From the NCBI RefSeq assembly GCF_017255295.1, contig NZ_JAFKDE010000018.1, positions 1-32,063 on the forward strand: a stretch of DNA of 32,063 bases. The letters are read 5' to 3'. Below the pieces are notes generated by a model that saw nothing but the letters and a program-made list of their open reading frames with translations, was not told the origin of the DNA and searched no databases. This document shows positions 5,555-29,201 of the stretch, piece by piece (the first letter of the stretch is position 1; every line of letters starts with the position of its first letter). The position numbers were made by a program, and so were the translations under genes. The DNA comes from Nitratireductor aquimarinus (GTDB taxonomy: Bacteria; Pseudomonadota; Alphaproteobacteria; Rhizobiales; Rhizobiaceae).

Positions 5555-5982
5555 TAAAGACCTCCGATGACGTGACGGATGACAAAGACGGTGATGGCGG
5601 TCGACGCCATGAATGTGAGCGTTGCGACGATCGAGCGAGGCGAAACACGCGCCATGCCGCAGACACCATGGCCGGAGGTGCAGCCCGAACCGAAATAAGC
5701 GCCGGCACCCGCAATCAGCCCGCCGACGATGAGCCAGGGCGCAGGGGTGGGGCTTTCAAAGGGAATGGTGTAGCCCGTCAGGCCCACGATCAATGCCGGT
5801 GCGCCGATGGCTCCGACAATGAATGCCGCGCGCCAGCCCCAGTCGCTTGAAAGGGGTGGGATGAGAGCGGAGAGGATTCCGGTCATGCCGGCTATGCGGC
5901 CGTGGAAAGCCATCAGCAGCACTGCGGCAAGGCCGATCAGGCTGCCGCCCAGCAGCGAGAGCCACGGGGTGAATTCAGTCAT
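5554..5982 (-). CDS. YeeE/YedE-family membrane protein, first half-transporter
   Basis: A 142-residue membrane protein with about four hydrophobic segments and the hallmark [15 protein letters not shown] near residue 100, whose cysteines correspond to sulfur-relaying residues of YeeE-type transporters. A start at 5982 has AAGGA 9-13 bases upstream. It pairs with the second half-protein, which begins on the last base of its stop codon. The 151-bp gap to the upstream dioxygenase gene contains GC-rich inverted segments but no gene. Role inferred: transport of sulfide, thiosulfate or a related species during H2S detoxification. Confidence 0.9.
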
Positions 5983-6133
5983 TTATTCTAGGTCCTTGAT
6001 GTCGACGGTTTGAGGAGTGCTCAGGCCGGGGGAAGTGGTGGGCGGTTCCAGGTGGTGTGCTTCTCCGGGAAGGCGGCCGTTCCGCCCCCTTTCCCTTTTG
6101 TCGCTGGGCTCCACCCAGAACTGCAATCCTCCA

Positions 6134-7018
6134 TCAGTCGTCCCAGGCGGCACCTTCCAGCAGGTTCATCGGAATCTTGAGATAGCGCTGTCCGTTCTTC
6201 TCGGGTTCCGGCAGCCGTCCGGCATTGGTGTTGATCTGCAGGGCGTGCAGGATCAACTTCGGCATGGAAAGCGTCTTGTCGCGCGCGTCCCGTGCGGTGA
6301 CGAACTCCGATTCAGTCTTGTAGACCGACATATGGATGTTCTTCGCCTTCTGCTCGGCCACGGTCGATTCCCACATGGGCTCTCGCCCGCCCGGCTGATA
6401 GTCGTGGCCGGTGAAGATGCGCGTTTCGTCGGGCAGGGCCAGAATATCCTGAATGGACTTCCAGAGTTCTGTCGCGCTGCCGCCGGGAAAGTCCGCGCGG
6501 GCCGTGCCGCCATCAGGCATGAACAGTGTGTCGTGAACAAAAGCGGCGTCACCGATCACATACGTGATCGAAGCGAGCGTATGGCCGGGTGAGAACATCA
6601 CCTTTGCAGGGATGTTGCCGATCTTGAAGGTCTCGCCATCGGCGAAGAGCTTGTCCCACTGCGAGCCGTCTGCCGGGAAATCGGGCCAGTTGTAAAACCC
6701 CTTCCACAGCTTCTGGACCTCTGTCACCTTCTCACCGATTGCGGTCGGCGCTCCGGTTTTGTCCCTGAGATAGGCAGCGGCAGAAAAGTGGTCGGCGTGC
6801 GGATGCGTGTCGAGAATCCACTCGATCTCATAGCCCTTGCTGGCAATGAAGTTGAGAATGTTGTCGGCATGTGTGGTCGCTGTCGCTGCCGACTTCTCGT
6901 CATAGTCGAGAACAGGGTCGATGATGGCGCATTTGCCGGTTTCAGGATCGGCGACGACATACTGGATCGACCAGGTGCGCGGATCAAAAAAGCCGGTAAC
7001 TTCGGGCTTGGCTGTCAT
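6134..7018 (-). CDS. blh: ETHE1-like persulfide dioxygenase (MBL-fold hydrolase, Blh type)
   Basis: A 294-residue metallo-beta-lactamase-fold protein. The iron-binding motif THPHADH lies near residue 66, with further ligands in SPGHTLASI (about 120), VHDTLFMPDGGTARADFPGG (about 140) and FTGHDYQPGG (about 195), the pattern of ETHE1-like sulfur dioxygenases. These use O2 and Fe(II) to turn glutathione persulfide into sulfite. A start at 7018 is preferred over the frame-extending ATG at 7156 because AAGAGGACG lies just upstream and the protein then begins MTAKPEVTGFFDPRTWSIQYVV, as in the family. Compared with Blh of Xylella or Agrobacterium it lacks the sulfurtransferase domain, which is a separate gene here. 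Second gene of the BigR-controlled operon, 156 bp after bigR. Confidence 0.92.
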   Translation of the reverse strand: MTAKPEVTGFFDPRTWSIQYVVADPETGKCAIIDPVLDYDEKSAATATTHADNILNFIASKGYEIEWILDTHPHADHFSAAAYLRDKTGAPTAIGEKVTEVQKLWKGFYNWPDFPADGSQWDKLFADGETFKIGNIPAKVMFSPGHTLASITYVIGDAAFVHDTLFMPDGGTARADFPGGSATELWKSIQDILALPDETRIFTGHDYQPGGREPMWESTVAEQKAKNIHMSVYKTESEFVTARDARDKTLSMPKLILHALQINTNAGRLPEPEKNGQRYLKIPMNLLEGAAWDD

Positions 7019-14536: not shown

Positions 14537-15988
14537 TCAGACCACCATGCACGGGGCGGTCTGTTCGAGCGGGCGGCCGGGGCGGGCGCCGGTTTTCTCG
14601 CCATCGACCCAGACTTCGCGTCCGTTGACGAACACCCGGTCAATGCCCACCGCCGGGCGGATTGGCGTCTCGAAGGTTGCGCCCTCGGCGATGGTCTCGG
14701 GATCGAAGATGACGAGATCTGCAAAGCCGCCAACGGCGATGCGACCGCGACCGCCAAGCCCGAAGCGGTCTGCTGGCATGGAGGTCATGCGGCGCACGGC
14801 TTCTTCCAGTGAGAACAGCGACAGGTCGCGGACATAGTGACCCAGCACGCGCGGGAATGTGCCCCAGACGCGCGGGTGGGGGTGCTTGCCGCTGGGGATG
14901 CCGTCCGAACAGATGATCGTGTGTTCGTAAGACAGGATGCGCTGAACATCGTCTTCGCTCATGATGAAGAAAATGCCGGTCGCGGGCAGAAGCTTCTGCA
15001 GCGCGGTGTCGATGTCGGTGCCCCATTCCCCGGCGATGTCGGACAGGTCGCGGCCAGCCATCTGCGGATAGGGCTCGCTTTCAGCCACGATCACGCGGGT
15101 CGCCTGCCTGTGCCTGCCGGAATCGAGGATGGTGGATGACGCAATCCACGGTGTGGTGTCGAGGCCCACATCCTGCTTCTGCATGGCATCGTCGATCATT
15201 TTCAGCGTGGTGACCGACATGCCGTGGTTGGCGAGCCCGGCGCATTTGTGATGGGAGACATGCACGCCGCAGCAGGATTCACGCCCCACGGTGAAGGTCT
15301 CTTCAAGCCCCTGAACGACGCGGTCGCCCTCGTCGCGCATGTGGGTGACATAGAGCTTGCCGTGCGCCTGCGTGATCTTCGCCACCTCGATCAGCTCTTC
15401 AGTGGTGGAGGCGCGTGCGGGAGGGTAGAAAGGGCCGGTGGAAAGCCCGATTGCGCCTTCGCCCAGCGCACGGTCGAGCTTGCGGCACATTTCTTTCAGC
15501 TGCGCTGCATCGGCGGCTTTGTTGAGGTCGGGCAGTTCGTTCACGCGCAGCGTGGAGTGCCCGATCAGGCAGGCTGCATTGACCGCTGCCGGTTCCGCGA
15601 GAAGCCGGTCGCGATAGGCGGCGTAGGTTTCAAAGCGCAGCGCTTCATCCTCGATGATCATGCGCAGAGGGGCGGGGATCTCGCCTTTCGGCACGAGCGG
15701 CGCGATGGAGAAACCGCAATTGCCGTTGATGACGGAGGTGACGCCCTGCGATGTCATGAACTCCATGTCGGGCTGGGTGAGCATCGCGGCATCATGGTGC
15801 ACATGCGGGTCGATGAAGCCGGGCGCTACGACGCGGCCGTTCGCTTCGATCTCGCGTCCGGCGGTCCAGTGTTTCAGGTCGCCGGTGGCGACAATGCGGT
15901 CGTCGGACACGGCCACATCACCCTTGCGACGGGGGGCGCCTGTACCGTCGATGATGTCTGCGCCGCGGATGATGAGATCAGCGTGCAT
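14537..15988 (-). CDS. N-acyl-D-amino-acid deacylase (D-aminoacylase), amidohydrolase superfamily
   Basis: A 483-residue metal-dependent amidohydrolase. It shows the metal-binding motif GFIDPHVHHD (57-66), the family cysteine in INGNCGFSIAPL (Cys91), YVTHMRDEG near 215, VSHHKCAG near 245 and IICSDGIPSGKHPHPRVWGTFPRVL near 365 with the catalytic aspartate, as in D-aminoacylases. These remove the acyl group from N-acyl-D-amino acids to release D-amino acids; some relatives act on N-acyl-D-glutamate or -aspartate. An AGGAG lies ahead of the ATG at 15988. It is the last gene of the dctMPQ operon, so the TRAP system probably imports its substrate. The exact acyl-amino acid cannot be deduced. Confidence 0.88.
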   Translation of the reverse strand: MHADLIIRGADIIDGTGAPRRKGDVAVSDDRIVATGDLKHWTAGREIEANGRVVAPGFIDPHVHHDAAMLTQPDMEFMTSQGVTSVINGNCGFSIAPLVPKGEIPAPLRMIIEDEALRFETYAAYRDRLLAEPAAVNAACLIGHSTLRVNELPDLNKAADAAQLKEMCRKLDRALGEGAIGLSTGPFYPPARASTTEELIEVAKITQAHGKLYVTHMRDEGDRVVQGLEETFTVGRESCCGVHVSHHKCAGLANHGMSVTTLKMIDDAMQKQDVGLDTTPWIASSTILDSGRHRQATRVIVAESEPYPQMAGRDLSDIAGEWGTDIDTALQKLLPATGIFFIMSEDDVQRILSYEHTIICSDGIPSGKHPHPRVWGTFPRVLGHYVRDLSLFSLEEAVRRMTSMPADRFGLGGRGRIAVGGFADLVIFDPETIAEGATFETPIRPAVGIDRVFVNGREVWVDGEKTGARPGRPLEQTAPCMVV

Positions 15989-16018
15989 GGGAAGGCTCCT
16001 GTATTGTTGTGTCGAAGG

Positions 16019-16564
16019 TCAGGTGGCGTCGCTGTCCGCAGGCGGCACGCCGTCATCGCCACACCATCGGGCGGCGAGATGAACGAGAATGAAGACGATC
16101 ATGATTGGAACGGCCACGGCCACCCAGAAGGTGCTGAAGGGCAGTGCGTCGGCCATGGTGCGGCTGTGGCGCAGCAGAAAACCGCGCGCCGGGTTCATGT
16201 TGGGACCATAGAAAACGTACCAGAGGATCGGCAGAAGATAGATCAGAACCACGGCCGACCGCATCAGCGCGGCGGCAAGCCCGAGAAGGGCGCTGCGTGA
16301 ACCTTCGCCGGTGAAGAGCGCCGGATCAAACCGGCGCTTGAATGATATCGTGGCGCCCATGAGGCCGGCCCAGATCATCGCGTATCGGGCCAGCTCCTCT
16401 GTATAGGCCGGCGGCTGGTTGAAGACATAGCGCGCCAGGACCTGCAGCATGACGGCCCCCACGAGGATCACCAGCGCCACGCCGGCCATCACTGTGGCCA
16501 GACGATCGAGTCCGTTGCTGAAGCGGATGACGGATTTGGCGATGTGTTTCATGGGGGCGGCCAT
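16019..16564 (-). CDS. dctQ: TRAP transporter small permease, DctQ-type
   Basis: A 181-residue protein with four membrane segments and the DctQ signature YTEELARYAMIWAGLMGATISF near residue 58. It connects with the large DctM subunit to form the membrane part of a Na+-driven TRAP importer. The start at 16564 lies 3 bases after the dctP stop (an in-frame ATG four codons later is possible). The order M-P-Q is unusual: Q and M are often adjacent or fused. Confidence 0.9.
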   Translation of the reverse strand: MAAPMKHIAKSVIRFSNGLDRLATVMAGVALVILVGAVMLQVLARYVFNQPPAYTEELARYAMIWAGLMGATISFKRRFDPALFTGEGSRSALLGLAAALMRSAVVLIYLLPILWYVFYGPNMNPARGFLLRHSRTMADALPFSTFWVAVAVPIMIVFILVHLAARWCGDDGVPPADSDAT

Positions 16565-16567
16565 TGC

Positions 16568-17551
16568 TTAGTCTGCGACGGAGTCGCGGGCTTTGGTCCA
16601 GATGCTCAGCTGGTCGTCTGGCAGAGACGTCGCCCAGGTGGCGCGGGCCAGCTCGGCCATCTTTCCGCGTTCGCCTTCGGCAAGCTCGGTGATGGTCACG
16701 CCAGCGGCTTCATGCTTTGCGCGCACTTCGCTGGCCCAGTTGTTGACCCAGTCCCTGTTCGCTTTCTTGCCGGCTGCGAGGGCAGCGTCGATCTGGTCCT
16801 TTTCCTCATCACCCAGCGACGTGTACCAGTCTTCCGAAATCAGAACGATGCGCGAGGACGGCGTGATGTCGGCGGGCGTGAAGTGCTTCAGAAACTCGGT
16901 GTGGCCGGTGCGGATGGCCGAGTTCGGCGGGTTGAAATAGCCATCGGCAACGCCGGTCTGGATGGCGTTTGCCACTTCCGACCAGGAGACGATCGTGCCA
17001 GTTGCGCCCAGCGCTTCCTGCAGTGCAATCTGCTCGCTGTTGAGCGCGCGGAAGCGCAGGTCGGACATGTCCTCGACCTTGGCGATCGGCTTCTTGGAAT
17101 TGTGAATGCCGATGTCCATGCCGATGTAATTGACGTCCACGAAACGCACGCCATTGTCGAGAAGCGGACCGTTCATCTGCTCAAGCATGTCCGTTTCCGA
17201 AAGCACGGCGTCGATCTGTTCGCGGTTCTCGAAGAAGAACGGGAGCTGGACGCCCTTCATCAGCGGTGACATGCCGAAACCGGTGGAAAGGGCGGCGAGA
17301 TTGACCTCCAGAAGTCCCTGGGCAACCTGGTCGAAACGCTCTTTTTCCGAGCCCAGCGTGCCGGACGGGAAAATGGAGACCTCGAATTCGGTACCCTTGA
17401 GCGCATCGGCAAAGCCGTGGGCGAAGGCTGCTTCCGGGTTGGTCGCCGTATCGTCGGCGCCGTTCATGGCGATCTTGATGTCAGCGGCCTGTGCAGCGGC
17501 GGTCATGAGCGCAAGCGCCGAGATGGCGAGGGCTTTGGGTAAAAACTTCAT
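16568..17551 (-). CDS. dctP: TRAP transporter periplasmic solute-binding protein, DctP-type
   Basis: A 327-residue protein with a signal peptide (MKFLPKALAISALALMTAAA, cleavage AQA/AD). The body has DctP features: FPSGTLGSEKERFDQVAQGLLEV near 60, and MSDLRFRAL near 165, where the conserved arginine binds a substrate carboxylate. The GGAGGAG Shine-Dalgarno is very strong, consistent with the higher expression usually needed for binding proteins. Carboxylate recognition agrees with import of an N-acylated amino acid for the deacylase in the same operon. Confidence 0.92.
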   Translation of the reverse strand: MKFLPKALAISALALMTAAAQAADIKIAMNGADDTATNPEAAFAHGFADALKGTEFEVSIFPSGTLGSEKERFDQVAQGLLEVNLAALSTGFGMSPLMKGVQLPFFFENREQIDAVLSETDMLEQMNGPLLDNGVRFVDVNYIGMDIGIHNSKKPIAKVEDMSDLRFRALNSEQIALQEALGATGTIVSWSEVANAIQTGVADGYFNPPNSAIRTGHTEFLKHFTPADITPSSRIVLISEDWYTSLGDEEKDQIDAALAAGKKANRDWVNNWASEVRAKHEAAGVTITELAEGERGKMAELARATWATSLPDDQLSIWTKARDSVAD

Positions 17552-17581
17552 TTTTTCTCCTCCGTTTTGTTTCGTTTTCCG

Positions 17582-18865
17582 TCAGGCGAGCCCCAACAGG
17601 CGTGGAATGGCCAGAGAAATCTCCGGGAAATAGGTGAGCACCAGCAGCAGCGCGACTTCGGCCAGAAAGAAGGGCAGGGTGGCGCGTATCAGCCGCCAGT
17701 AATTCATGCGCACCGTGGTCGCGAGGATCAGCAGAACCCCTCCGAGCGGCGGCGAAAGAAGGCCGGTGGTGATGTTGAAGCAGATCACGATGCCCAGATG
17801 CACGGGGTCGACGCCCATGGCGATTGCGACAGGTGCGAAGATCGGCGCGAACAGCGCCACGGCGGCCTTCACATCCATCGCCATGCCGGCCACCAGAAAG
17901 ATCAGGTTGATCAGCATCAGATATTGCAGCGGGCTGAGGTTCCAGTCTTCCACCGTCGCCTTGATGGCCTGCGGCCATTGCAGAAGCGCGGCGATGTAGG
18001 AAAAGGTCGAGATCGCGCACAGGATGATGAACAGCCCGCCAAGCATCACCGCCGTGCGTTGCAGGCTTGCGCCCACCTGGCTCCAGGTGAGATTGCCATG
18101 GGTGAAACCGACCACCAGAGCCGCAATCACGGCCACCGCTGCCGCTTCAGCCGGCGTCATGAAGCCGAACAGCGTGCCGCCGAGAATGATCACCGGGAGG
18201 GTCATGGCGGGCAGGGCCCTCAGGAGCGAGGGGAAGAATGCAGGCACGTCCTCGCCCGGGCCGCCGGGGTGGTTGTCGCGATGGGCGTAATAGGCGTTGA
18301 TCGCCATCAGAACGCCGGCCAGCAGCAGGCCGGGCAGAATGCCGGCGGCGAAAAGCGCAGTGACGTTCGTCTCCATCAGCGCGCCATAGAAGATCAGGAT
18401 GGACGACGGCGGGATGATCGGGCCGATGATCGACGATGCGCCGGTGATGGCCGCGGCGTAGTCGAGCGAATAGCCGCGCCGGCGCATCTCGGGCACCAGC
18501 GAGTTGCCAAGTGCGGCGGCGTCGGAGACCGCCGAGCCGGATACGCCGGCAAAGAACACCGAAGTCATCACGTTGACATGGCCCAGGCCGCCCTTGAGGC
18601 GTCCGAGGAAGGACATGCAGAAATCGATCAGCGCGGTTGCCAGACCGCCACGGTTCATCAAATCGCCCGCGAAGATAAACAGCGGCATGGCCAGAAAGGC
18701 GAACACATCGAGCTGGCTGAAAAGCCGCTGGGGCAGGACCGCCATATACATCTGACGGTCGGCCGCAATGAAGGTCAGGATCGCGGAAGCGCCAATGACA
18801 TAGGCAATGGCGGCGCCGGCCATGAGGCCGAAAACGGTGAATGCGATGATAAGCGGCGCCTGCAT
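17582..18865 (-). CDS. dctM: TRAP transporter large permease, DctM-type
   Basis: A 427-residue membrane protein with about 12 hydrophobic segments and DctM signatures: MPLFIFAGDLMNRGG near 60, GVSGSAVSDAAALGNSLVPEM near 108, AAITGASSIIGPIIPPSS near 137 and FMTPAEAAAVAV near 235. It is the substrate-translocating subunit. It is the first gene of the operon, facing the LysR gene across a 132-bp promoter region. GGGGAGGGG precedes the ATG. A 454-residue open frame on the opposite strand is only its shadow. Confidence 0.93.
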   Translation of the reverse strand: MQAPLIIAFTVFGLMAGAAIAYVIGASAILTFIAADRQMYMAVLPQRLFSQLDVFAFLAMPLFIFAGDLMNRGGLATALIDFCMSFLGRLKGGLGHVNVMTSVFFAGVSGSAVSDAAALGNSLVPEMRRRGYSLDYAAAITGASSIIGPIIPPSSILIFYGALMETNVTALFAAGILPGLLLAGVLMAINAYYAHRDNHPGGPGEDVPAFFPSLLRALPAMTLPVIILGGTLFGFMTPAEAAAVAVIAALVVGFTHGNLTWSQVGASLQRTAVMLGGLFIILCAISTFSYIAALLQWPQAIKATVEDWNLSPLQYLMLINLIFLVAGMAMDVKAAVALFAPIFAPVAIAMGVDPVHLGIVICFNITTGLLSPPLGGVLLILATTVRMNYWRLIRATLPFFLAEVALLLVLTYFPEISLAIPRLLGLA

Positions 18866-18967: not shown

Positions 18968-18997
18968 GTGGCGGAAAAACGGGGAGGCAGCACGGCC

Positions 18998-19912
18998 ATG
19001 AAGCCATTGACTTTGCAGCGTTTGCAGGTTTTCTGCGCGGTCTACGAGCGGCAGTCGATCACGGCGGCGGCGCGGCAAATGAACCTGTCGCAACCCACGG
19101 TCAGCCGCCATCTGCGTGACCTCGAAGCGGCCATCGGCCTGACGCTTTTCGTGCTCGACAAGGGGCGCGTGATCCCGACCGTCGAGGCGGACGCCATCTA
19201 CAATGAGAGCCGTTTTCTCTATGACGGGATCAGCCGGCTGGAACAACGCATCGACTCGCTGCGAAAGGGCGTCGGCACGCGCCTTCTGGTGATGTCGGTC
19301 GGGCTTTTCGCTCCCTATTTCGTGCCCACCGCGCTTCGCAGGGTGCTGGATGCGATGCCGGGCCTGCGCGTGGCCGTGGATGTGGGGACAGCGCAGCAGC
19401 AGGTTCAGGCGATACGTGCGGGCATGGTCGATGTAGGGCTCGTCATCGGCAGGTTTCAGGCTGACGACATATCCACTGAGCCGCTGGGGCGTGGCCGTCT
19501 GGTGGTGCTCAGCCCAAAGGACGGCCCGCTGACGCGACTGGACCGCGTCAGGCTGGAGGATCTGAGTTCCGTGCCAATGCTGGGACTGACCCCGCGTGGC
19601 CCCATCGGGCGTGTGCTGAACGAGGCGCTTCTGGAGCGCGGATTGCCTTTCGACAATACGGTGACGGGCAACACACTGGTTTCCGTACCCCATCTCGTTC
19701 TGGCAATGCAGCGCTCTGCGGTGGTTGATGAGTTTACCGCCGCCTTTCACGGTCTGGATGGGCTGGTGACGCTGCCGCTGGAGCCCGACCTGCCGCTCGA
19801 TATCCAGTCGATCTCCATGGGTGCAACGGCGAGCAAAGTGGCCAGCCAGCTCTTCCTGAAGGAAATACGTGGAATGCTCGCGGACTGGCGGGAAGGGAAG
19901 ATGCAGTTTTAG
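18998..19912 (+). CDS. LysR-family transcriptional regulator
   Basis: A 304-residue protein with an N-terminal LysR helix-turn-helix (residues 4-62: LTLQRLQVFCAVYERQSITAAARQMNLSQPTVSRHLRDLE) and a C-terminal periplasmic-binding-like effector domain from about residue 90. The ATG at 18998 is preferred to the upstream GTG at 18968 because GGGGAGG (18981-18987) is correctly spaced and the HTH starts at the usual position. Divergence from dctMPQ and the D-aminoacylase gene suggests that it activates them in response to the imported acyl-amino acid or a product. Confidence 0.92.
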   Translation: MKPLTLQRLQVFCAVYERQSITAAARQMNLSQPTVSRHLRDLEAAIGLTLFVLDKGRVIPTVEADAIYNESRFLYDGISRLEQRIDSLRKGVGTRLLVMSVGLFAPYFVPTALRRVLDAMPGLRVAVDVGTAQQQVQAIRAGMVDVGLVIGRFQADDISTEPLGRGRLVVLSPKDGPLTRLDRVRLEDLSSVPMLGLTPRGPIGRVLNEALLERGLPFDNTVTGNTLVSVPHLVLAMQRSAVVDEFTAAFHGLDGLVTLPLEPDLPLDIQSISMGATASKVASQLFLKEIRGMLADWREGKMQF

Positions 19913-20016: not shown

Positions 20017-20032
20017 GTGGGAAGGTTCCCAC
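20017..20032. promoter_or_regulatory. LacI-family operator upstream of the lacI-type gene
   Basis: GTGGGAA-GG-TTCCCAC: perfect 7-bp arms (20017-20023, 20026-20032). The core TGGGAA..TTCCCA is the same as in the palindrome at 21162-21179. It lies 47 bases before the GTG start of the LacI-type gene, fitting autorepression and control of the whole operon. Confidence 0.75.
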
Positions 20033-20079: not shown

Positions 20080-21126
20080 GTGACGGATAACGCCGCTTCC
20101 CTGACCATTATCGACATTGCGCGGCTCTCTGGCGTGTCCAAGAGCACCGTGTCCCGTGTGCTGTCCGGGGCGGAGAACGTGTCCGAGGAGGCGCGTCGCA
20201 AGGTGACCGAGGCCGTTGAGGCATCCGGCTTTCGGCGCAACGAGCTTGCGCGGTCCCTGCGGTCCGGGCGCACCGGCATGGTCGGCCTTCTGATCCCTGA
20301 TATTGCCAACCCCTTCTGGGCCGAGGTCGCCCGTGGTGCGCAGGATGCGGCCACGGAAGAGATGGCCTCTGTCCTGATCTTCAATTCTGACTGGGATCCC
20401 GAGCGCGAGCGCCGGCATCTCATGGCGTTGACCCAGTCGCGGGTCGATGGCGCGATTGTGAATCCGGTCCAGAACGGGCTGGATGAACTCTCCCGCAGCC
20501 AGGTTCCGCTGGTGCTGATCGGCTCGTCGGCCGAACGGTTTCCGGAACTGCCTTCGGTCGGCAGCGATATTACGCAGGGTGTGCAGCTCGGGCTTGAGCG
20601 ACTTGTTCAGGCCGATCTCGGAATGCCGGCCCTCTTGGTCGGCGATCCGCATCGTACCGCGCGGGAGCGGTTCGTTGGCGCTGTTCGCGAGTTTGGCGCG
20701 GCGCAGGGCTGGCCGGTCGAGGGGCTGAGGCTTCAGGACGGTCACTACACCATTGAGGGTGGTCGCGACGCCATGAAGCGGCTGCTTCAGGGCGGTGTGC
20801 CGCGCGTTGTTTTCGCGGCCAATGACATGATGGCGCTGGGCGCGCTTCATGCCGTCCGGGAGGCCGGGCTGAACTGCCCGGAGGATGTGGCCATTCTCGG
20901 TTTCGACGGAACGCCGGCGGCGGAGGTCTCGATGCCGGGACTCACAACGATCATGAAGCCTTCGCGCGATATTGGCCGGCGGGCATTTGAATTGCTGAGC
21001 CGGAAGATCGCTGGTGATGAGGATGTTCCGCACATGTCGCTGCCCTGTTCGCTCGTTGAGCGGGGGACGCTGCCGACAAGAGAAGGGCCGCGCGTCGTTC
21101 GCGGGGAGGGGAGGACAGCGACGTGA
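20080..21126 (+). CDS. LacI-family transcriptional regulator
   Basis: A 348-residue repressor with the LacI helix-turn-helix (residues 8-30: LTIIDIARLSGVSKSTVSRVLSG), hinge helix, and a periplasmic-binding-like sensor domain (GLLIPDIANPFWAEVARGAQDAA, VVFAANDMMALGALHAVREAG, AILGFDGTPAAEVSMPGLTT). The frame is open from 19960, but the GTG at 20080 is preferred: AGGAGG ends 11 bases upstream and the HTH then begins at the usual distance from the start. It is first gene of the operon; its stop overlaps the permease start (GTGA). The sensor should bind the imported compound or its first product. Confidence 0.93.
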   Translation: MTDNAASLTIIDIARLSGVSKSTVSRVLSGAENVSEEARRKVTEAVEASGFRRNELARSLRSGRTGMVGLLIPDIANPFWAEVARGAQDAATEEMASVLIFNSDWDPERERRHLMALTQSRVDGAIVNPVQNGLDELSRSQVPLVLIGSSAERFPELPSVGSDITQGVQLGLERLVQADLGMPALLVGDPHRTARERFVGAVREFGAAQGWPVEGLRLQDGHYTIEGGRDAMKRLLQGGVPRVVFAANDMMALGALHAVREAGLNCPEDVAILGFDGTPAAEVSMPGLTTIMKPSRDIGRRAFELLSRKIAGDEDVPHMSLPCSLVERGTLPTREGPRVVRGEGRTAT

Positions 21127-22115
21127 CAAAGCACGACAAGGCAGGGGCTTTTTCGCCCAAAATTGGGAACGTTCCCAATCGCGCACGGCCTCGACAGGCT
21201 GATGCCTATAACTCGCGTGGTGCGAGACTGCGGGACGGGGTGCGCGAATGGTGGCCCTATTATCTGATGCTGGCGCCAGGCCTGATTTACTTCGGGCTGT
21301 TCCATTATCTGCCGATCTGGGAGGCGCGGCTTGCCTTTGAGGATCTGCGCATCATCGGTCCGAATGTCTGGGTCGGCACCAAGCATTTTGCGCAGCTGTT
21401 TGCGTCGCCGACCTTCTTCGAGGTCCTGAAGAACACGCTCATCATCAGCGCGATGAAGGTCGCCTTCGTCTTCCCGCTTCCGATCATCCTGTCTCTGCTC
21501 TTGAACGAGGTGCGCTCGGGACGTTTCCGGCGCGGCGTGCAGTCGGTGATCTATCTGCCGCATTTCCTGTCCTGGGTCGTGATCGCGGGCATTTTCATTG
21601 CAGCGCTCTCGCCGTCCAATGGCGTGGTCAATGATTTGCGCGACTTCGTCGGTCTTGACCGTCGCAGCTTCATGACTGACAGCGGATCGATCCGCTGGGT
21701 GCTGGTCTGGTCCGAGGCCTGGCGCAGCGCCGGCTGGGACAGCCTGCTCTATTTCGCCGCCATCATGGCCATTGATCCGGCGCTGTATGAGGCTGCCGAG
21801 ATGGATGGTGCATCGCGCTGGCAGAAGATGCGTCACATCACGCTGCCGGGCATTGTGCCGACTATTGCGACGCTCTTCATCCTGCATGTCGGGCTCTTCC
21901 TGAACGCGGGCTTCGATCAGGTCTTCAACCTGTCCAACGACGCCATCCGGGACAAGATCGACATCATCGACACCTATGTCTACCGGCTCGGTATCACCGG
22001 CGGGCAGTTCTCGCTCGCCACGGCCGCCGGCCTCTTCAAGGGGGTGATCGGGATGATCCTGATGATCGGCGCGCACACGCTGTCCAAGCGACTAACAGGC
22101 AAGGGGGTCTGGTGA
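21123..22115 (+). CDS. Sugar ABC transporter permease, LplB-type
   Basis: A 330-residue membrane protein with six segments; the core starts WWPYYLMLAPGLIYFGLFHYLPIWEA at about residue 43, as in LplB-type permeases (COG4209) found with large binding proteins. The EAA loop reads YEAAEMDGASRWQKMRHITLPG near 222. A GTG start at 21123 overlaps the LacI stop and is preceded by GGGAGGAC. The N-terminal 40 residues are polar and poorly conserved in look, and their coding DNA contains a LacI-type operator, so a later start such as GTG 21240 cannot be excluded. Confidence 0.9.
   Translation: MTKHDKAGAFSPKIGNVPNRARPRQADAYNSRGARLRDGVREWWPYYLMLAPGLIYFGLFHYLPIWEARLAFEDLRIIGPNVWVGTKHFAQLFASPTFFEVLKNTLIISAMKVAFVFPLPIILSLLLNEVRSGRFRRGVQSVIYLPHFLSWVVIAGIFIAALSPSNGVVNDLRDFVGLDRRSFMTDSGSIRWVLVWSEAWRSAGWDSLLYFAAIMAIDPALYEAAEMDGASRWQKMRHITLPGIVPTIATLFILHVGLFLNAGFDQVFNLSNDAIRDKIDIIDTYVYRLGITGGQFSLATAAGLFKGVIGMILMIGAHTLSKRLTGKGVW
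21162..21179. promoter_or_regulatory. Second LacI-family operator, inside the permease reading frame
   Basis: ATTGGGAACGTTCCCAAT is a perfect 18-bp palindrome with the CG centre typical of LacI-family sites. It shares the TGGGAA..TTCCCA core with the site at 20017-20032. It lies 37-54 bases downstream of the lacI stop, within the first codons of the permease gene as annotated, and could act by roadblock, looping with the upstream site (about 1.1 kb apart), or repress an internal promoter. Confidence 0.75.
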
Positions 22116-23008
22116 TGGCATCCAGCAACAAGACCCGGATGGAGCGGCTCGAAGAAGCGATTATCTATTCCGTCCTTATCGCCATCGTCGTGGTGACGGT
22201 GCAGCCGATCCTGAACCTTCTGGCGATCTCGCTCTCCGATCCGGCCCGCGTGCCGGGGATGAGCGGCATGGACATCGTACCTGACGGGTTCTCGATCGAT
22301 ATCTGGAAGCTTCTCGCAAGCCACCCGGCGGTGCAGCGCGGGCTGATGAACTCGATCTTCATCACCCTCGTCGGGGCGATCCTCAACGTCACCTTTACCG
22401 CCATGATGGCCTGGGCGCTGTCACGCAAGAAGCTGCCGCTGCGCCGGACCCTGTTTGTGCTGATCCTTGCGACCATTGTCTTCGAACCGGGGATCATTCC
22501 CGATTACTTCGTGATGCGACGCCTGGGGCTGATCGACAGCTATGCGTCGGTCATCATCTACAAGCTCGTCAACGCCTGGTACCTCATCATCCTGATCCGC
22601 TTCTTCGAGGAGGTTCCGGAAGAGCTCATCGAGGCAGCGACGCTGGACGGTGCAAATGCGTTTCAGGTCTTCTGGCGCGTGGTGTTGCCGCTCGCCAGAC
22701 CGGCGCTGGCGACCATCACCCTGTTCTACGTGGTTTATCACTGGAACGATTTCCTGCGTCCGATGATCTATTTCAACGATCAGGACATGTGGCCGCTGCA
22801 GGTTGTGCTGCGCCAGTTCGTCGTGGTCGGCGACAAGGCCGCCATCGTCGGACTTCAGGCCATGAACAATTACGAGGGCGCGAGCCAGATCGATCTCCGG
22901 GCGTTCCGCGCCGGGATGATCCTGTTCACCATCCTGCCCGTCCTCGCGATTTACCCGTTCATCCTTCGCTACTTCACCAAGGGAACCATGTCCGGTGCCC
23001 TCAAATGA
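22115..23008 (+). CDS. Carbohydrate ABC transporter permease, LplC/YtcP-type
   Basis: A 297-residue membrane protein, partner of the preceding permease, with six segments and EAA loop IEAATLDGANAFQVFWRVVLPLARPA near residue 180. ATG at 22115 follows AAGGGGG by 8 bases and overlaps the upstream stop (TGATG); a GTG at 22112 is less likely. C-terminal FTKGTMSGALK is typical of this family. Confidence 0.92.
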   Translation: MASSNKTRMERLEEAIIYSVLIAIVVVTVQPILNLLAISLSDPARVPGMSGMDIVPDGFSIDIWKLLASHPAVQRGLMNSIFITLVGAILNVTFTAMMAWALSRKKLPLRRTLFVLILATIVFEPGIIPDYFVMRRLGLIDSYASVIIYKLVNAWYLIILIRFFEEVPEELIEAATLDGANAFQVFWRVVLPLARPALATITLFYVVYHWNDFLRPMIYFNDQDMWPLQVVLRQFVVVGDKAAIVGLQAMNNYEGASQIDLRAFRAGMILFTILPVLAIYPFILRYFTKGTMSGALK

Positions 23009-23030
23009 CCGCATATTCAGGGAGGAAATG

Positions 23031-24446
23031 ATGAAAGACCTAACCATATCCCGTCGCGCCCTGCTTGCAGGGCTTGCCGCAACACCGGCGCTTGCAATGC
23101 TGCCGGGCAGGGCAATGGCCGCAAGCGGCACGATCCGGATCGTCATGAAGGATCTTCTGACGAGCAACCCGGAAGATGTTGCCCACGTCGCACGCATTGA
23201 AGAGGCTCTTGCCGCGCGTGGCCACGATATCAAGATCGAGATCATCGATCTGCCGTCCGAAGGCTATGCGGAAAAGCTCAACCTGATGCTGCTCTCGGGC
23301 GACGTGCCGGACATCATCTATTTCCAGGGCGGTGACGAGCAGATCGCGCAGCAGGGCGTGCTGATGGATTTGAACCCGCTGATCGCCAAAACCGAACATT
23401 TGAGCAAGGCGCTCTGGCCGCACAATACCGCGCGGCTCGGCAACTACCCGCATCTGCTCTATGTCTACCCGGCACGGACCAAGGCGCCGGTGATGCGCAA
23501 GGACCTTCTGGAAGCGACCGGCCTTTCCGCGCCGACCTCGCTCGAGGAATGGGATGCGCTTCTGCGCGCCATCCCCGGCACCGAGATCGGCGGCAAAGCC
23601 GTGAAGCACGGCATCATCGCGCCGAACAACACAGCCGAGCTGGACGCGATCTTCGATCCGGCCTTCGGTATCGAACAGACCTGGATGAAGAACGCCGATG
23701 GCGAACTGATCCACTCGCGCATCAGCGAGGGCGAGCGCGCCAAGCTCGCCTGGTACGCCAGCCTTTTCGCCGACGGGGTGCTCGATCCGGAATTCATCAC
23801 CTCGAACTGGGAAGTGAAGGAAGACAAGTTCTACACTGGCCAGGTCGGCGTGGTGATGGGCACGGCCGGTCCGGTCGTGGGCATCTATGAAGCCAAGATG
23901 GCGCAGGTGAACCCGGGGGCCGAGCTGGTGCTCCTGACCCCGCCCGCCGGCATTCAGGCCGTTGATGTCAGCAAGGAAAGCCGGGGCTTCGCCATTCCGG
24001 TCACCACGAAGAAAACCGATGCCATCATGGCCTTCTTCGATTTCGTGGCTTCGCCGGAAGGGCAGATGATGGAGCGCCTCGGCTTCGAGGGCGAACACTA
24101 CACCCGCGAAGGTGACACGCTGACCGCGACCGACAAGCTCGGCGCCTGGTATCCGCGCTTCATCTACGCAAATCCAAACTACCACCAGCCGCCGCTCAGC
24201 CCTCTGTCGCCTTTGGCCCAGAGCGCGCTTCAGCAGGGCGTCGACTTCTTCCGCGCCGACAACACCTTCGTCTGGTCCCCCGAACTGGCGGCGGCTGTGG
24301 ACGGGGCGGAGACCTACTACCGCACCAATGTCTTCCGCTTCGTCTCCGGCGAACTGTCGACCGAAAACGATTGGGATGCCTTCGTTGCGGGCTGGCTGGC
24401 CGCTGGTGGGCAGGCAATGACTGATCATGCAAGGACCGTAATGTGA
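23031..24446 (+). CDS. Tat-exported extracellular solute-binding protein (LplA-like, family 1)
   Basis: A 471-residue periplasmic protein. The N-terminus MKDLTISRRALLAGLAATPA carries a twin-arginine motif (SRRALLAG) and ends in AMA/AS, so it is probably exported folded by Tat. The body has GYAEKLNLMLLSGDVPDIIYFQGGDEQIAQQGVLMDL-type family-1 segments (about 80-120, given in part) and is longer than usual sugar-binding proteins, as in the LplA group that accompanies LplB/LplC permeases and binds oligosaccharides. ATG 23031 has GGAGG 5 bases upstream; the ATG at 23028 is too close to it. The stop overlaps the next gene (GTGA). Confidence 0.9.
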   Translation: MKDLTISRRALLAGLAATPALAMLPGRAMAASGTIRIVMKDLLTSNPEDVAHVARIEEALAARGHDIKIEIIDLPSEGYAEKLNLMLLSGDVPDIIYFQGGDEQIAQQGVLMDLNPLIAKTEHLSKALWPHNTARLGNYPHLLYVYPARTKAPVMRKDLLEATGLSAPTSLEEWDALLRAIPGTEIGGKAVKHGIIAPNNTAELDAIFDPAFGIEQTWMKNADGELIHSRISEGERAKLAWYASLFADGVLDPEFITSNWEVKEDKFYTGQVGVVMGTAGPVVGIYEAKMAQVNPGAELVLLTPPAGIQAVDVSKESRGFAIPVTTKKTDAIMAFFDFVASPEGQMMERLGFEGEHYTREGDTLTATDKLGAWYPRFIYANPNYHQPPLSPLSPLAQSALQQGVDFFRADNTFVWSPELAAAVDGAETYYRTNVFRFVSGELSTENDWDAFVAGWLAAGGQAMTDHARTVM

Positions 24447-25654
24447 CACAGCAAGGACAAGACGGAACCTCCCCGTTCCGTGGTCGCGTCCGGGCAATGG
24501 TTCATGGCGTCGCTTTCGGCGACGCCATGGGCGCCCCGGTCGAGAAACTTTCTGCCGCCGAAATCCGCGAGCGCTATGGTCGGGTGACCTCGCTGCGCAC
24601 TGCGTGGCATCGTGACGGGCAGAGCGAGGATCAGCGCAAGGGCAGGGTTCGCGGCAACGGGATCACCACCGACGACACGGCGATGACGCTTTCGCTGATG
24701 CGGATCTATGAGCGCGAAGGCCGCCATCTGGACGCCTGGGACATGGCCGAGGGCATGGTGCGCGAAATCGCGTGGGAAAGTCGTTGGGTGCCCGAGCTGC
24801 AGCGCGAAACGCCGCTGATCGAACGCCTCTTCTATCCCGAGAAATGGATTTTCCAGCGCCTGCAGCTATCGGCCTGCGATCCGCGTCAGGGCGGCGTGGG
24901 CAACATGGTGAACTGCGGTGCGACGATGTATATCGCGCCGGTGGGCGCTGTGAACGCCTGCAACCCGCGCGCGGCCTATGATGAGGCGATCAATTTCGCC
25001 GAGGGCCATCAGCAAAGCTATGGCCTTGAGGCCGCCGGTGTGTTTGCCGCTGCGATTGCACAGGCTTTCGTACCGGGCGCGACGCTCTCCGAGGTCGTTC
25101 AGACGGCCTATGATCTCGCCCATGACGGCACCCGCACGGCGATCGGCGAGATCGTTGCTGCCGCAGGGGAGCTTGCCCGCAAGGGAGCCGAAGCCGACGA
25201 GGTCACCGACACGTTCCATCGCCTTATCGCGCCGTTCTCGCCGATGGGGGACAACGTTGCGCACGGGCCCGAGAAGGCCGGGGTGGCGACCGCTGCCTAC
25301 CAGCCCTCGCGTCTGCTTTCGATCGAGGAGTTGCCGCTGGCGCTGGGGTTCTGCATCACGGCCGGCGGTGATTTCCGGCAGGGGGTGATCGACGGGATCA
25401 ACTCGGGCCGCGACACGGATTCCATCGGTGTGATGGTCGGCGCGATCCTCGGGGCAATGCATGGCCCGTCGGTGATCGATGAGGATGACGCCGAGCTTCT
25501 GGATAGCGCCAACCGGTTCTGCCTCTCCGAGAGCGCAGACCGTTTCACCACCGCTGCGCAGGCGATCATCCAGGTGGATGAAGAGGCTGCGCGCGCAAGG
25601 GCTGCGCAGCGTGCGGCAATCTTTGCACAGGACAAGAAGGAAGCCGCCGAATGA
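24443..25654 (+). CDS. ADP-ribosylglycohydrolase (ARH/DraG)-family hydrolase, first copy
   Basis: A 403-residue all-helical ARH-fold protein with the complete set of divalent-metal motifs: GVAFGDAMGAPVE (22-34), TTDDT (75-79) and NSGRDTDS (320-327). The family removes ADP-ribose or similar groups from proteins, nucleic acids or small molecules by cleaving N- or O-glycosidic bonds to ribose; some bacterial members sit in catabolic operons and have small-molecule substrates. The GTG start at 24443 overlaps the binding-protein stop and has AAGGA 7 bases upstream; its stop overlaps the second ARH gene (ATGA). There is no signal peptide, so it acts in the cytosol, presumably on what the importer brings in. 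The substrate is unknown. Confidence 0.88.
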   Translation: MTQQGQDGTSPFRGRVRAMVHGVAFGDAMGAPVEKLSAAEIRERYGRVTSLRTAWHRDGQSEDQRKGRVRGNGITTDDTAMTLSLMRIYEREGRHLDAWDMAEGMVREIAWESRWVPELQRETPLIERLFYPEKWIFQRLQLSACDPRQGGVGNMVNCGATMYIAPVGAVNACNPRAAYDEAINFAEGHQQSYGLEAAGVFAAAIAQAFVPGATLSEVVQTAYDLAHDGTRTAIGEIVAAAGELARKGAEADEVTDTFHRLIAPFSPMGDNVAHGPEKAGVATAAYQPSRLLSIEELPLALGFCITAGGDFRQGVIDGINSGRDTDSIGVMVGAILGAMHGPSVIDEDDAELLDSANRFCLSESADRFTTAAQAIIQVDEEAARARAAQRAAIFAQDKKEAAE

Positions 25655-27720
25655 CCCCGGAGAGCATCCGCGAAAAGATCTATGCCGGACTGATCGGCAA
25701 GGCCGTTGGCGTGCGCCTTGGTGCGCCGGTCGAACCGACGGTCTGGACCGAAAAGCTGATCCGCGAGGTCTATGGCGAGATCGATGACTATGTTCGCGAC
25801 TATCGCAATTTCGCGGCGGACGACGACACCAATGGACCGCTCTTCTTCGTGCGCGCCCTCTGGGACGAAGGCGATGAGCTGACCTACGAATCCGCCGGGC
25901 GTACATGGCTGAACTATATCGGTGACGGCCACGGAATGCTCTGGTGGGGCGGGTTCAATATCTCCACCGAGGAAACGGCCTATCGCTATCTTCAGGACGG
26001 TGTCACCGCGCCGACCTCGGGCAGCATCAAGCTGCGCGGCCAGATCGAAGCCGAACAGATCGGCGGGCAGATCTTTTCGGATTGCTGGGGCTGGGTCTGC
26101 CCTGGCAAGCCAGAGGAAGCCGCGCGGCTTGCGCGGATCATGGCTTCCGTGTCGCATGACGGCGAAGCGCTGCACGGCGCGGCCTATGTCGCCGGAGCGA
26201 CGGCGGCGGCCTTCACCGCTTCGACCATCGCCGAAGTGCATGAAACCGCGCGCGCACTGGTTGCCGACGGCTCGCACTATGCCCGTGTTCTCGATGCGGT
26301 TTCAGCCTACCATGCGGCGAACCCCGAAGACTGGCGCGGCTGCTTTCACATGCTGGAGCGTGACTTCGGCTATGACAAATGGACCGGCGTTTGCCACGTG
26401 ATCCCCAATGCGGGCGTGACAGCACTGGCGCTGCTCTATGGTGAGGGCGACATGCCGCGCACGGCGGCAGTGGCCTCGATGTGTGGCTGGGACACCGACT
26501 GCAATGCAGGCAATGCTGCAAACATAGCAGGCGTGCTTCAGGGTGTTCAGCCACACTGGGCCAAATGGCGTCGTCCGATCAACGACATCCTCATCACCTC
26601 GGCGGTGACCGGTTCGCTCAACATCGTCGACATGCCCTCGGCCGCCCGCGATTTCGCTGTGCTGGCGCTGCGTCGTCGGGGCGATGCGATCCCGGAGGGC
26701 TGGGCCGACAAGGCGCTCGCCCGCGCCGTCGATTTCGACTTCGCGCTGCCGGGCGCGAGCCACGGCATTCGTGCGGAAGGTTCGCATCGTCTGCGCACAC
26801 TGCCGGGCAACGCCGAGGGCGCGATCACCGTCCAGATCGACCGCTGGGCCGCTGGCGACAATGGCCGCGTGTTCTGGAAGCCCTTCTACCGGGAATGCGA
26901 GTTTGACGATAACCGCTATCGTCCGATGCTCTCACCCGTCACGGCCTCGGGGCAGCGCGTCGAGATTTCCCTGACGGGTACCGAGGCGCTCGAAGGTCCG
27001 CGACAGGTGACGTTCGTTCCCTATGTCCGCTTTGCCGCTTCCGGCGAAGTGCGGGAACTGGGAGACTGGTCGCTTCTGCCGGAGGACTGGCAGGTCATCG
27101 GGTTCACGCTTCCCGACAGCGAGGAGGCTATTGACGAGATTGGCATCCTGATGAAGCAGACGGCGGAAGCCCGCGTTTTCATGAACGTGCTGATCCGCAG
27201 CTTCACCGTGACGGGAGCCGGCAAGACGGTCATTAACCCGCAGATCGAATCCGAGGAATGGGGCTCGGTCAGCCGTTTCAGCTTCAATCGCGGAAGCTGG
27301 GGCCTGTCGGAGGGCTGCATTCGCGGTGAGGCGACGAAGGACGGAGATCTCTGGACCGGTCACGCCTTCGCAACCGATCAGACGGCGACGGCGCAGATCT
27401 CGCGTGTCGAGGGTGAGAGCCATCTGGTCAGCGTGCGCGCCTCGGGCAATGAGCGCTTCTATGCCGCGGGCATCCACGAGGGCCAGGCTGTGATCCTCCG
27501 CGAGGATTTCGGAACCGAGATCCTTGCGGCTGCGCCGGTTGAGGTGGGGCAGGACGTGACCCTGACATTCGCAGCGAAGGGGGAGAGGCTCACCCTCTTC
27601 ATCGACGGCAGGGAAATTGTCTCGGCGACTGACAGCCGGCATCCGCGCGGCATGGCCGGTCTGAGGCTCGGTGGCCCCGGTGTCGTGACCTGCCGCCGCT
27701 TCGAGATACTGGAGGGCTGA
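25651..27720 (+). CDS. Two-domain ADP-ribosylglycohydrolase-family protein, second copy with C-terminal beta-rich domain
   Basis: A 689-residue cytosolic protein. The N-terminal ~345 residues are a divergent ARH/DraG domain with [17 protein letters not shown] (13-29), the metal motif ADDDT (56-60) and [10 protein letters not shown] (279-288). The C-terminal ~340 residues lack ARH motifs, are rich in predicted beta strands and end with [18 protein letters not shown] and [20 protein letters not shown], the pattern of a LamG/DUF1080-like jelly roll that could bind glycans or shape the substrate pocket. The two ARH proteins are only distantly alike, so they probably act on different bonds or on successive steps. 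Coupled by ATGA overlap to the first copy; the ATPase gene follows after one base. Confidence 0.85.
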
Positions 27721-27721
27721 T

Positions 27722-28786
27722 TTGGGACGGATCCAGCTGGAGAATGTTGGCAAGACCTATGGCGGAACCAGGGTCCTGCAGGACATCAATCTCGATATCG
27801 AGGACGGCGAGTTCGTCGTCCTCGTCGGACCTTCGGGCTGTGGCAAGTCCACGCTCCTGCGCATGGTGGCGGGGCTCGAGGACATTTCGCAGGGCCGCAT
27901 CATCATCGACGGCAAGGTTGCGAACCGGGTTCCGGCGAAGGAGCGCGGGCTGGCGATGGTCTTTCAGTCCTATGCGCTCTACCCGCACATGAAGGTTGCC
28001 GAGAACATGAGCTTTGCGCTCCGTCTCGCAGGCGTCAAGAAATCCGAGATCGACTCGAAGGTTCGGCAGGCCGCCGAGATACTCGGGCTTGAGCCCTATC
28101 TCGACCGTCTGCCCAAAGAGCTTTCGGGTGGCCAAAGGCAGCGGGTCGCCATGGGGCGCGCCATCGTCCGCGATCCGGAAGCCTTTCTGTTCGATGAGCC
28201 CCTTTCAAACCTCGACGCCAAGCTGCGTGTGCGCATGCGGTCGGAGATCAAGAAGCTGCATCAGCGGCTCGCAAAGACGACGATCTATGTCACGCATGAT
28301 CAGACCGAGGCGATGACGATGGCAGACCGCATTGTCGTTCTGCATGACGGTCATGTTGCCCAGATCGGGCCGCCCTCCGAGCTTTACAACAATCCGAACT
28401 CAGCCTTTGTGGCCAGTTTCATCGGCTCGCCCGAAATCAGCATGTTCAAAGCGAAGGCAGGCGCGAAAGGCGCGCGTCACGTCGTTCTGGACGGCGGCGT
28501 CATCATGCCGCTCGGGCGGCCGCTGGACGTGGCTGAAGGCACCGAGGTGACGTACGGCATTCGTCCGCAGACGATCGAGATCTCTGAAACAGGTCCTGTG
28601 GCCGAGGTGCTGCTTGTGGAGCCGACCGGCGAGACAGCCGAAGTGACGCTCTCGCTCGCAGGGCAGGAGATGGTCGCCGTTCTTCCGGCGAAAGCCGGGC
28701 TGGAACCCGGACGCCAGATCGCGCTTGGCATCCCCGCTGAACGCGCGCTGGTCTTCGACCCGGCGACCGGTGGACGCCTGCTGTGA
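27722..28786 (+). CDS. Sugar ABC transporter ATP-binding protein (UgpC/MalK-like)
   Basis: A 354-residue ATPase with Walker [10 protein letters not shown] (36-44), Q-loop Gln82, signature LSGGQRQR (134-141), Walker B AFLFDEP near 157, H-loop [10 protein letters not shown] and a C-terminal TOBE-type domain from about 240. It should power the LplB/LplC-type permeases upstream in the same operon. The start is a rare TTG at 27722: GGAGG (27711-27715) is 6 bases upstream and the protein then begins [14 protein letters not shown], the normal MalK/UgpC N-terminus. Placing the ATPase after the two hydrolase genes indicates that they belong to the transport unit. Confidence 0.93.
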
Positions 28787-29050
28787 TCCGGATCGGGGGA
28801 GGCTGAACGGAAGGCTCGCCCCCACCCCGGGTGATCGGGCAATGAGCGACTGTCTCGCAGCAGCGGGCCTTCGGATCAAGTCGCAGTCCGCGCCAGTGAC
28901 GCCATGCTCTGGGACCGCCGTAGACTTCCAGTTTCAATGACGCGGTCGGGGCTTCTGTGCGCTGCATGGCGCAATCCCTCACGTAAAATCAGGCATGCAC
29001 CAGGTCTGAAAATCCATGCCAGACGGTCGGTCTGACAGCCGCTGAGCATG

Positions 29051-29069
29051 CCATATCCTTTGGTTATGG
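29051..29069. promoter_or_regulatory. Imperfect palindrome, possible operator for the M55/Dpp operon
   Basis: CCATATCC-TTT-GGTTATGG (arms 29051-29058 and 29062-29069) has one mismatch. It lies about 20 bases before a TTGACC -35-like box. No regulator gene is adjacent. Confidence 0.4.
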
Positions 29070-29088
29070 AGTTATGTCAGATCACAAT

Positions 29089-29117
29089 TTGACCTCCCTG
29101 TTTCCATCTGCCCTAAT
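29089..29117 (+). promoter_or_regulatory. Putative sigma70 promoter of the M55/Dpp operon
   Basis: TTGACC (29089-29094) and CCTAAT (29112-29117) are 17 bases apart and 85 bases before the start codon. The -10 box is a weak match. Confidence 0.4.
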
Positions 29118-29201
29118 TTCGACAGGCCCGGGAACGGAAAAAGAATAAGCTTCGGAACGCCTTTAAAGCGTTGGATTCCAGGCTATCGGGGAGGAGAAAA
29201 C

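Follow-up and report, generated by a model that had tools for sequence, protein, structure and literature searches.

The DNA analyzed here (hereafter, the window) is a complete contig of 32,063 bases, C18, from the 4.57 Mb draft genome of Nitratireductor aquimarinus, and it carries an operon in which two different proteins of the ADP-ribosylglycohydrolase (ARH) family PF03747 are placed within an ATP-binding cassette (ABC) import operon of the AlgQ/LplBC/UgpC type. This arrangement, headed by a lacI gene, had been proposed in a sequence-only reading of the window, and its component genes, all on the + strand, are borne out by open frames and profile scores. The LacI-family regulator (20080..21126; PF00356, PF13377) has a frame that is open from 19960, and its start at 20080, preceded by AGGAGG, follows the annotation of plasmid pOM-1 of Nitratireductor sp. 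OM-1. It is followed by an LplB-type permease (21123..22115; PF00528), an LplC-type permease (22112..23008; PF00528), an AlgQ/LplA-like solute-binding protein with a twin-arginine translocation (Tat)-like leader recognized by eye (22995..24446, start probably at 23031; PF01547), the predicted hydrolases ARH1 (24443..25654, with the pOM-1 start at the equivalent of 24497) and ARH2 (25651..27720), and a UgpC/MalK-type ATPase (27722..28786; NF008653, 460.6 bits against a cut-off of 432). The SBP_bac_1 binding protein, two BPD_transp_1 permeases and UgpC/MalK ATPase together have the composition of a CUT1-type carbohydrate ABC importer, and the nearest solved relatives of the binding protein are AlgQ1 and AlgQ2. 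Plasmid pOM-1 carries the same operon, with an ARH2 98.1% identical to that of the window. The seven genes had also been described as overlapping or nearly touching. The gene set stands, but whether lacI overlaps the first permease gene hinges on the start codon of the latter (21123, 21243 or 21267), because a conserved palindrome lies at 21164 and the pOM-1 annotation uses a later start, equivalent to 21267.

ARH1 and ARH2 score 146.4 and 143.0 bits against PF03747 (cut-off 26.2), are open at both sets of coordinates, and are the only matches to this family in the whole genome. They are distant from each other, the best piece of alignment reaching 32% identity over 87 residues (E 0.002). The metal motifs previously pointed out, TTDDT/DTDS in ARH1 and DDDT/DTDC in ARH2, are present as described and kept among the homologues. 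Across 60 ARH1 rows (from the window, from locus L116 and from those loci with an ARH1 frame that satisfied a filter on score and length), at least 99% conservation is seen at E34, T76, D77, D78, T79, D324, D326 and S327, and T325 is not invariant; across 37 ARH2 rows, E28, D57-D59 and D281-G287 are invariant. The usual ARH motifs contain threonines, and the roles of the metal-binding residues come from ARH3 and DraG. In the ARH2 variant (DDD, DTDCNAG), D57 and C284 replace two of these threonines. Missing from the sequence-only reading was a C-terminal part of about 330 residues in ARH2, a beta-sandwich region encoded at 26719..27717 (+ strand; boundary approximate, taken from the secondary structure of the model). 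In the structural model of ARH2 (mean pLDDT 93.3), the N-terminal half has the ARH fold, with Foldseek matches to ARH3 (TMt up to 0.76) and DraG (TMt up to 0.73), and the C-terminal half is all-beta, one part of it being CBM66-like (TMt up to 0.74).

Searching the genome contigs of 84,980 species with ARH2 confirmed 365 relatives, and the analysis retained the 80 best loci. As these loci were collected by ARH2, counts out of 80 presuppose that gene. The fetched DNA contains two or more ARH frames at 77 of the 80 loci, a count that speaks for the pairing only; two hydrolases, as in the window, are a usual pair. The remaining three are two loci on short contigs (L077, L081) and one whose second ARH is on another contig (L080); in L071 the second ARH is a 117-residue piece at the contig edge. 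Second ARHs are of two kinds, one ARH1-like and the other shorter, at about 330-355 residues; L016, L020 and L057 have both. The possibility that ARH2 stands alone in L056, L072 and L080 was rejected, a shorter ARH having been found in each genome. Four ARH genes per cluster are seen in L039 and L040, where extra genes for proteins of 333 and 347 residues come after ARH2 and are followed by a LacI gene. The binding protein served as a query that does not presuppose an ARH. Six of 199 genomes of the window's taxonomic family have a match at 48% identity or more (other matches are at most 28% identical over most of their length, or short), and ARH1 adjoins the binding protein in all six and ARH2 too in five. 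Among these matches, the refuting observation named in the sequence-only reading, homologous operons that normally lack the ARH genes, was thus not seen. In the sixth (G002), the binding protein lies beside ARH1 only, with a kinase, and a weaker ARH2-like match (34%) is found elsewhere. With ARH2 as the query, 19 of the 199 genomes match. Identity reaches 49% or more in six of them, and in the sixth, G034, the operon sits at a contig start, so that the binding protein is cut off. The operon is present in several phyla.

Neighboring frames at the homologous loci were clustered, and cluster representatives were named by Pfam and NCBIfam. The sequence-only reading had remarked that no kinase is included, which holds for the window but not for its homologues, where a ribokinase-type kinase is present at 48 of the 80 loci and genes of a citramalate-type lyase module at 74. 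The three linked kinases tested are closest to ribokinases: that of L019 passes TIGR02152 (321.6 against a cut-off of 299.65), and those of two plasmid loci outside the 80, L103 (279.4) and L106 (290.8), fall just under it. The operon of L106 (Deinococcus aetherius), with its ARH, kinase and ABC genes, also encodes a 370-residue protein (5613-6725) with no Pfam or NCBIfam match at the thresholds used.

The lyase modules are of the AtuA type at 52 loci and of the CitE/CoA-transferase type at 22. DUF4387 is present at 49 of the 80 loci, and the nearest solved relative of AtuA and DUF4387 is the citramalate lyase CmlA/CmlB (PDB 9ERQ/9EVF; E 3e-135 and 4e-23). A model of the L019 AtuA agrees with 9EVF, deposited as ‘Citramalate lyase - ADP - pyruvate complex’, at TM 0.94 and 49% identity. 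Having an AtuA large subunit and a DUF4387 small subunit near 9ERQ, the homologue representatives are predicted to be CmlAB-type enzymes. A CitE-like lyase is found at 21 loci: with a coenzyme A (CoA) transferase of family III at 14, with CitF at five, with an ADP-forming CoA-ligase-like protein in L065, and at the contig end in L071. A CitD-like protein was confirmed by Pfam in both CitF loci examined (L016, L038), and in L011 a CoA-transferase is present and the contig stops before any lyase. AtuA and CitE never occur together at one of the 80 loci, and AtuA is missing from all 22 loci of the CitE/CoA-transferase type. A cluster of proteins of about 660 residues with an FGE-sulfatase domain occurs in six loci, among them L007 (14208-16196), L014 and L015, and the gene comes directly after the lyase gene in L007 and L014.

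AtuA/DUF4387 and the CitE-like lyases are unrelated families by Pfam; the three CitE modules have the lyase in common and differ in their handling of CoA or of an acyl carrier. On a quick ARH2 tree (LG model, 83 rows, 74 of them labeled as AtuA, CoA-transferase + CitE, CitF + CitE, or CitE + other), the lyase labels need seven changes, a count that is approximate since some long branches meet, and shuffled labels need 20.6 on average. The lyase label is therefore also clustered by descent, and the filling of the same role by unrelated enzymes in separate lineages indicates that a function has been kept, not just a gene order. In the genus of Paenibacillus sp. yr247, represented by 30 genomes, DUF4387 is found in four, each time about 4.6 kb from a full-length ARH2. 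Six of these 30 genomes have a full-length ARH2 at 80% identity or more, the other two carrying CitE with a CoA ligase and a kinase, and two further full-length relatives (L124 and L125; 44-45%) have no DUF4387 nearby. A chance neighborhood was considered and judged unlikely, given the seven label changes on the tree and, in the single genus analyzed for it, the rarity of DUF4387 and its linkage to ARH2. DUF4387 is also found on 43 plasmid records of other bacteria, and no ARH lies nearby in either of the two that were viewed. On the Klebsiella pneumoniae plasmid pHNLC3, AtuA and DUF4387 lie beside fumarate hydratase and several aldehyde/alcohol dehydrogenases, in what looks like a mesaconate/citramalate route without ARH.

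A ribokinase and a CoA-transferase/lyase pair were found elsewhere in the window's genome. DUF4387, the small subunit of a CmlAB-type lyase, gave no match in this genome. A CoA-transferase and CitE-like lyase pair is located at C8:289411-291503, unlinked to the ARH operon; its cluster, which pOM-1 carries too, also holds an IclR regulator and a tripartite tricarboxylate transporter. The C8 lyase is 53-55% identical to the lyases beside the nearest ARH operons (L003-L006) and 33-44% identical to the 17 others in the comparison. Ten of the 199 family genomes have a close CoA-transferase (E up to 1e-120), namely all six operon genomes (linked in four, unlinked in two) and 4 of the 193 others (hypergeometric 2.6e-9, kinship not corrected for). 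The best ribokinase match is on C9 and is 51% identical to the operon-linked kinase of Agrobacterium HAMBI 105.

A palindrome scan upstream of lacI gave TGGKAANNTTMCCA, which occurs at two places only in the genome, 20018 and 21164, both in this operon. The operator-like palindrome O1, TGGGAAGGTTCCCA, lies at 20018..20031 (no strand assigned) upstream of lacI and recurs there in related loci; O2, TGGGAACGTTCCCA, lies at 21164..21177 (no strand assigned), at the 5′ end of the first permease gene or immediately upstream of it, and is conserved. As a control, the reversed pattern of TGGKAANNTTMCCA matched once in forward and once in reverse orientation; from base composition, about 0.5 sites would be expected. 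Of 18 related stretches from Alphaproteobacteria, all have both sites except L104, which has one; the number falls to 16 once L117, which seems to be the contig of L005 again, and L095, a near-copy of the window, are left out. Contigs beginning after lacI do not enter this count. Among L016-L082, a site is found in L063 only, itself alphaproteobacterial. A lacI gene with palindromic predicted operators at its own operon is what would be expected of a LacI-regulated operon, and control by LacI, as proposed in the sequence-only reading, is retained as a prediction. The palindrome was not found in the C8 and C9 stretches, and membership of the C8 pair in the same LacI regulon was rejected on this ground.

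Import, two ARHs, a ribokinase-type kinase and a citramalate-type lyase recur with no nucleobase enzyme among the checked neighbors, and the simplest substrate would therefore be a riboside of citramalate or of a close hydroxy-acid. We consider it probable, though by no means certain, that the operon covers import and first cleavage in the catabolism of a small ribofuranoside of citramalate (2-hydroxy-2-methylsuccinate) or of a very similar 2-hydroxy-dicarboxylate. The compound would be taken up by the binding protein and the LplBC/UgpC importer, its ribosyl bonds would be hydrolyzed by ARH1 and ARH2 as metal-dependent enzymes of the ARH3/DraG fold, the freed ribose would be phosphorylated by a ribokinase, and the hydroxy-acid would be split into pyruvate and either acetate or acetyl-CoA by whichever of several interchangeable lyase systems is present. 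In the window's genome, the lyase step may be supplied in trans by the CoA-transferase III and CitE-like pair on C8. LacI would repress its own gene and the transport and hydrolase genes via the two palindromes, presumably being released by the substrate or by ribose. The operon of L116, with ARH1 and a kinase and without ARH2 or a lyase, weakly suggests a division of labor in which the bond beside the acid is cut by ARH2 and a different ribosyl bond by ARH1. A wider proposal, which we advance tentatively and credit slightly less than its denial, is that these ARH-fold proteins serve as the dedicated glycosidases in a so far undescribed pathway that breaks down ribosyl- (perhaps diribosyl-) citramalate, and that this pathway is spread over rhizobia, marine Alphaproteobacteria, Paenibacillus, other Bacillota including animal-gut lineages, and Spirochaetota, with AtuA + DUF4387, or a CitE-like lyase with one of three CoA-handling partners, having replaced one another in it.

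Several observations weigh against a citramalate riboside as the substrate. We know of no ribosyl-citramalate as a natural product, and none was found in the open literature searched, which included no preprints and few subscription papers. Nor was a catabolic operon with ARH genes described in the titles and abstract openings of the matches listed; searches of it on DUF4387 and on AtuA with DUF1446 found no paper, and none on 9ERQ/9EVF was among the matches listed. The naming of citramalate itself depends on homology and on what the depositors called one solved enzyme, and a citramalate riboside does not by itself account for the need for two hydrolases. In the fetched DNA, a kinase of the ribokinase cluster is missing at 32 of the 80 loci and a lyase-module gene at six. 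Of these six, L012, L060, L063 and L081 are on short contigs, and in L080 a DUF4387 gene accompanies the second ARH on a separate contig; L059 is a true exception, with no lyase-module gene at the locus and no DUF4387 in its genome. A Phyllobacterium plasmid (L102) has neither kinase nor lyase pair within 30 kb, the plasmid of Agrobacterium HAMBI 105 (L103) has the kinase only, and L116 lacks both ARH2 and a lyase, as described. ARH2-like importers at 33-36% identity occur without a lyase module: L121, whose protein is 33% identical to the ARH2 of the window, and L125, from the genus of Paenibacillus sp. yr247, with no such module within 19 kb (L124 is a contig of 6.6 kb). The lyase association thus looks specific to this ARH2 subfamily, few outside relatives having been compared. 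Finally, no palindrome accompanies the C8 pair, whose operon is that of a tripartite tricarboxylate transporter, and a C8-type cluster is also found in a congener that gave no ARH2 match (G136), so the role of the pair in trans is not proven.

One possible source of a similar gene set could be the same pathway logic applied to another ribose-linked acid, such as citrate, a methylcitrate- or malate-like acid or a further beta-cleavable hydroxy-acid. Family III CoA-transferases and CitE-like lyases vary in substrate, the CitF of L038 (526.1 against 501.45 for the citrate-lyase alpha subunit) and the CitE of L016 (445.1, just over 443.4 for the beta subunit) exceed citrate-lyase cut-offs, and both loci have a CitD-like protein. 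These scores make citrate or another hydroxy-acid conceivable. We regard such a substrate as unlikely, as the AtuA found at 52 of the 80 loci resembles the solved citramalate lyase (one was modeled, at 49% identity) and aerobes with a citric acid cycle need no dedicated citrate or malate lyase. Alternatively, the sugar might be another furanose (fructofuranose, arabinofuranose or apiose), with ARH2 acting as a glycosidase that carries a CBM66-type furanose-binding module; CBM66 is a fructan-binding module, the C-terminal part of ARH2 resembles it, and the binding protein is AlgQ-like. Against this distinctly improbable reading, ribosyl bonds are what ARH enzymes act on, the linked kinases that were tested stand nearest to ribokinases, and binding of a polymer is unlikely because no secretion signal is visible by eye at the start of ARH2.

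Among the substrates named as examples in the sequence-only reading were breakdown products of NAD, ADP-ribose or modified nucleosides, and salvage of such compounds would draw on the ARH fold, on the ribokinase-type kinase of the homologues and on the parallel with E. coli yegTUV. At one of the 80 loci (L054), a Na+/nucleoside (CNT-type) transporter takes the place of an ABC importer, which also fits the nucleoside-like small riboside of the main reading. No nucleobase deaminase, phosphorylase, Nudix protein or amidase was seen among the conserved neighbor clusters whose families were checked, and genes of a citramalate-type lyase module are found at 74 loci instead, which leaves salvage very improbable. 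It is this part of the sequence-only interpretation that found no support; a dedicated route for uptake and degradation of a ribosylated compound, with an ARH pair and LacI control, is supported as a prediction. A reading in which the pair would strip ADP-ribose from proteins and control the importer, taking no part in catabolism, has a precedent in DraG, which controls nitrogenase in this way and belongs to the same Pfam family. We give this almost no credence: the DraG equivalog model TIGR02662 is far off (ARH1 at 47.6 against 337.05 bits, ARH2 with no match), and linkage to a ribokinase-type kinase and a lyase module is frequent.

The genes that follow the operon differ between the window and the otherwise similar pOM-1. 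After ugpC (28787-29201), the window continues with an M55 D-aminopeptidase and two Dpp-type ATPases, and pOM-1 with an alpha/beta hydrolase and iron-type ABC genes; the divergence falls where relatives hold the CoA-transferase/lyase pair. Upstream, at 14537-18865 on the - strand, genes of a tripartite ATP-independent periplasmic (TRAP) transporter adjoin an Amidohydro_3 protein (a D-aminoacylase in the pOM-1 annotation), and a LysR gene lies by them at 18968-19912 on the + strand.

For many bacterial ARH genes no substrate has been assigned. Here, because unrelated lyases take each other's place next to an ARH pair and a ribokinase-type kinase, the candidate substrates are reduced to a few compounds that can be synthesized, and the question becomes directly testable. 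If a citramalate riboside is indeed consumed, a ribosyl hydroxy-acid must be common enough in soil, sea and animal guts to support dedicated uptake in several phyla, and would be a widespread natural product and food source that has so far gone undescribed. The ARH fold would then serve as a catabolic glycosidase, with ARH2 as a new kind of glycoside hydrolase.

Several known systems come close to the operon. DraG and ARH3 share the PF03747 family and the paired acidic motifs with the window pair, and ARH2 has the same fold; the window pair differs in its catabolic setting, in scoring far below the DraG equivalog model and, for ARH2, in the DDD and DTDCNAG variants and the 330-residue beta extension. 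E. coli yegTUV, which consists of a transporter, an ARH and a PfkB-type kinase, has the same idea of transport, ARH and sugar kinase. Here, in contrast, there are an ABC importer, two ARHs and a LacI gene, with a citramalate-type lyase module in the homologues, and the adjoining nucleoside permease, ARH and kinase of the yegTUV type are not seen, no kinase being among the window proteins scanned. The citramalate lyase CmlAB (9ERQ, 9EVF) has close relatives in the AtuA and DUF4387 of homologous operons, but the solved enzyme has no seen tie to ARH genes and DUF4387 is absent from the window's genome. The LplABC and AlgQ-AlgM1-AlgM2-AlgS importers have the same types of binding protein and permeases, whereas the window operon has neither a polysaccharide lyase nor a classical glycosidase, its only hydrolases being of the ARH fold. 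Itaconate/citramalyl-CoA degradation, by a CoA-transferase and the RipC/Ccl lyase, uses the same CoA-transferase III and CitE-like pair that comes after ugpC in the plasmid relative from Sinorhizobium sp. B11, but the lyase of the latter falls under the RipC/Ccl cut-off (109.5 against 375 bits) and is linked to an ARH importer.

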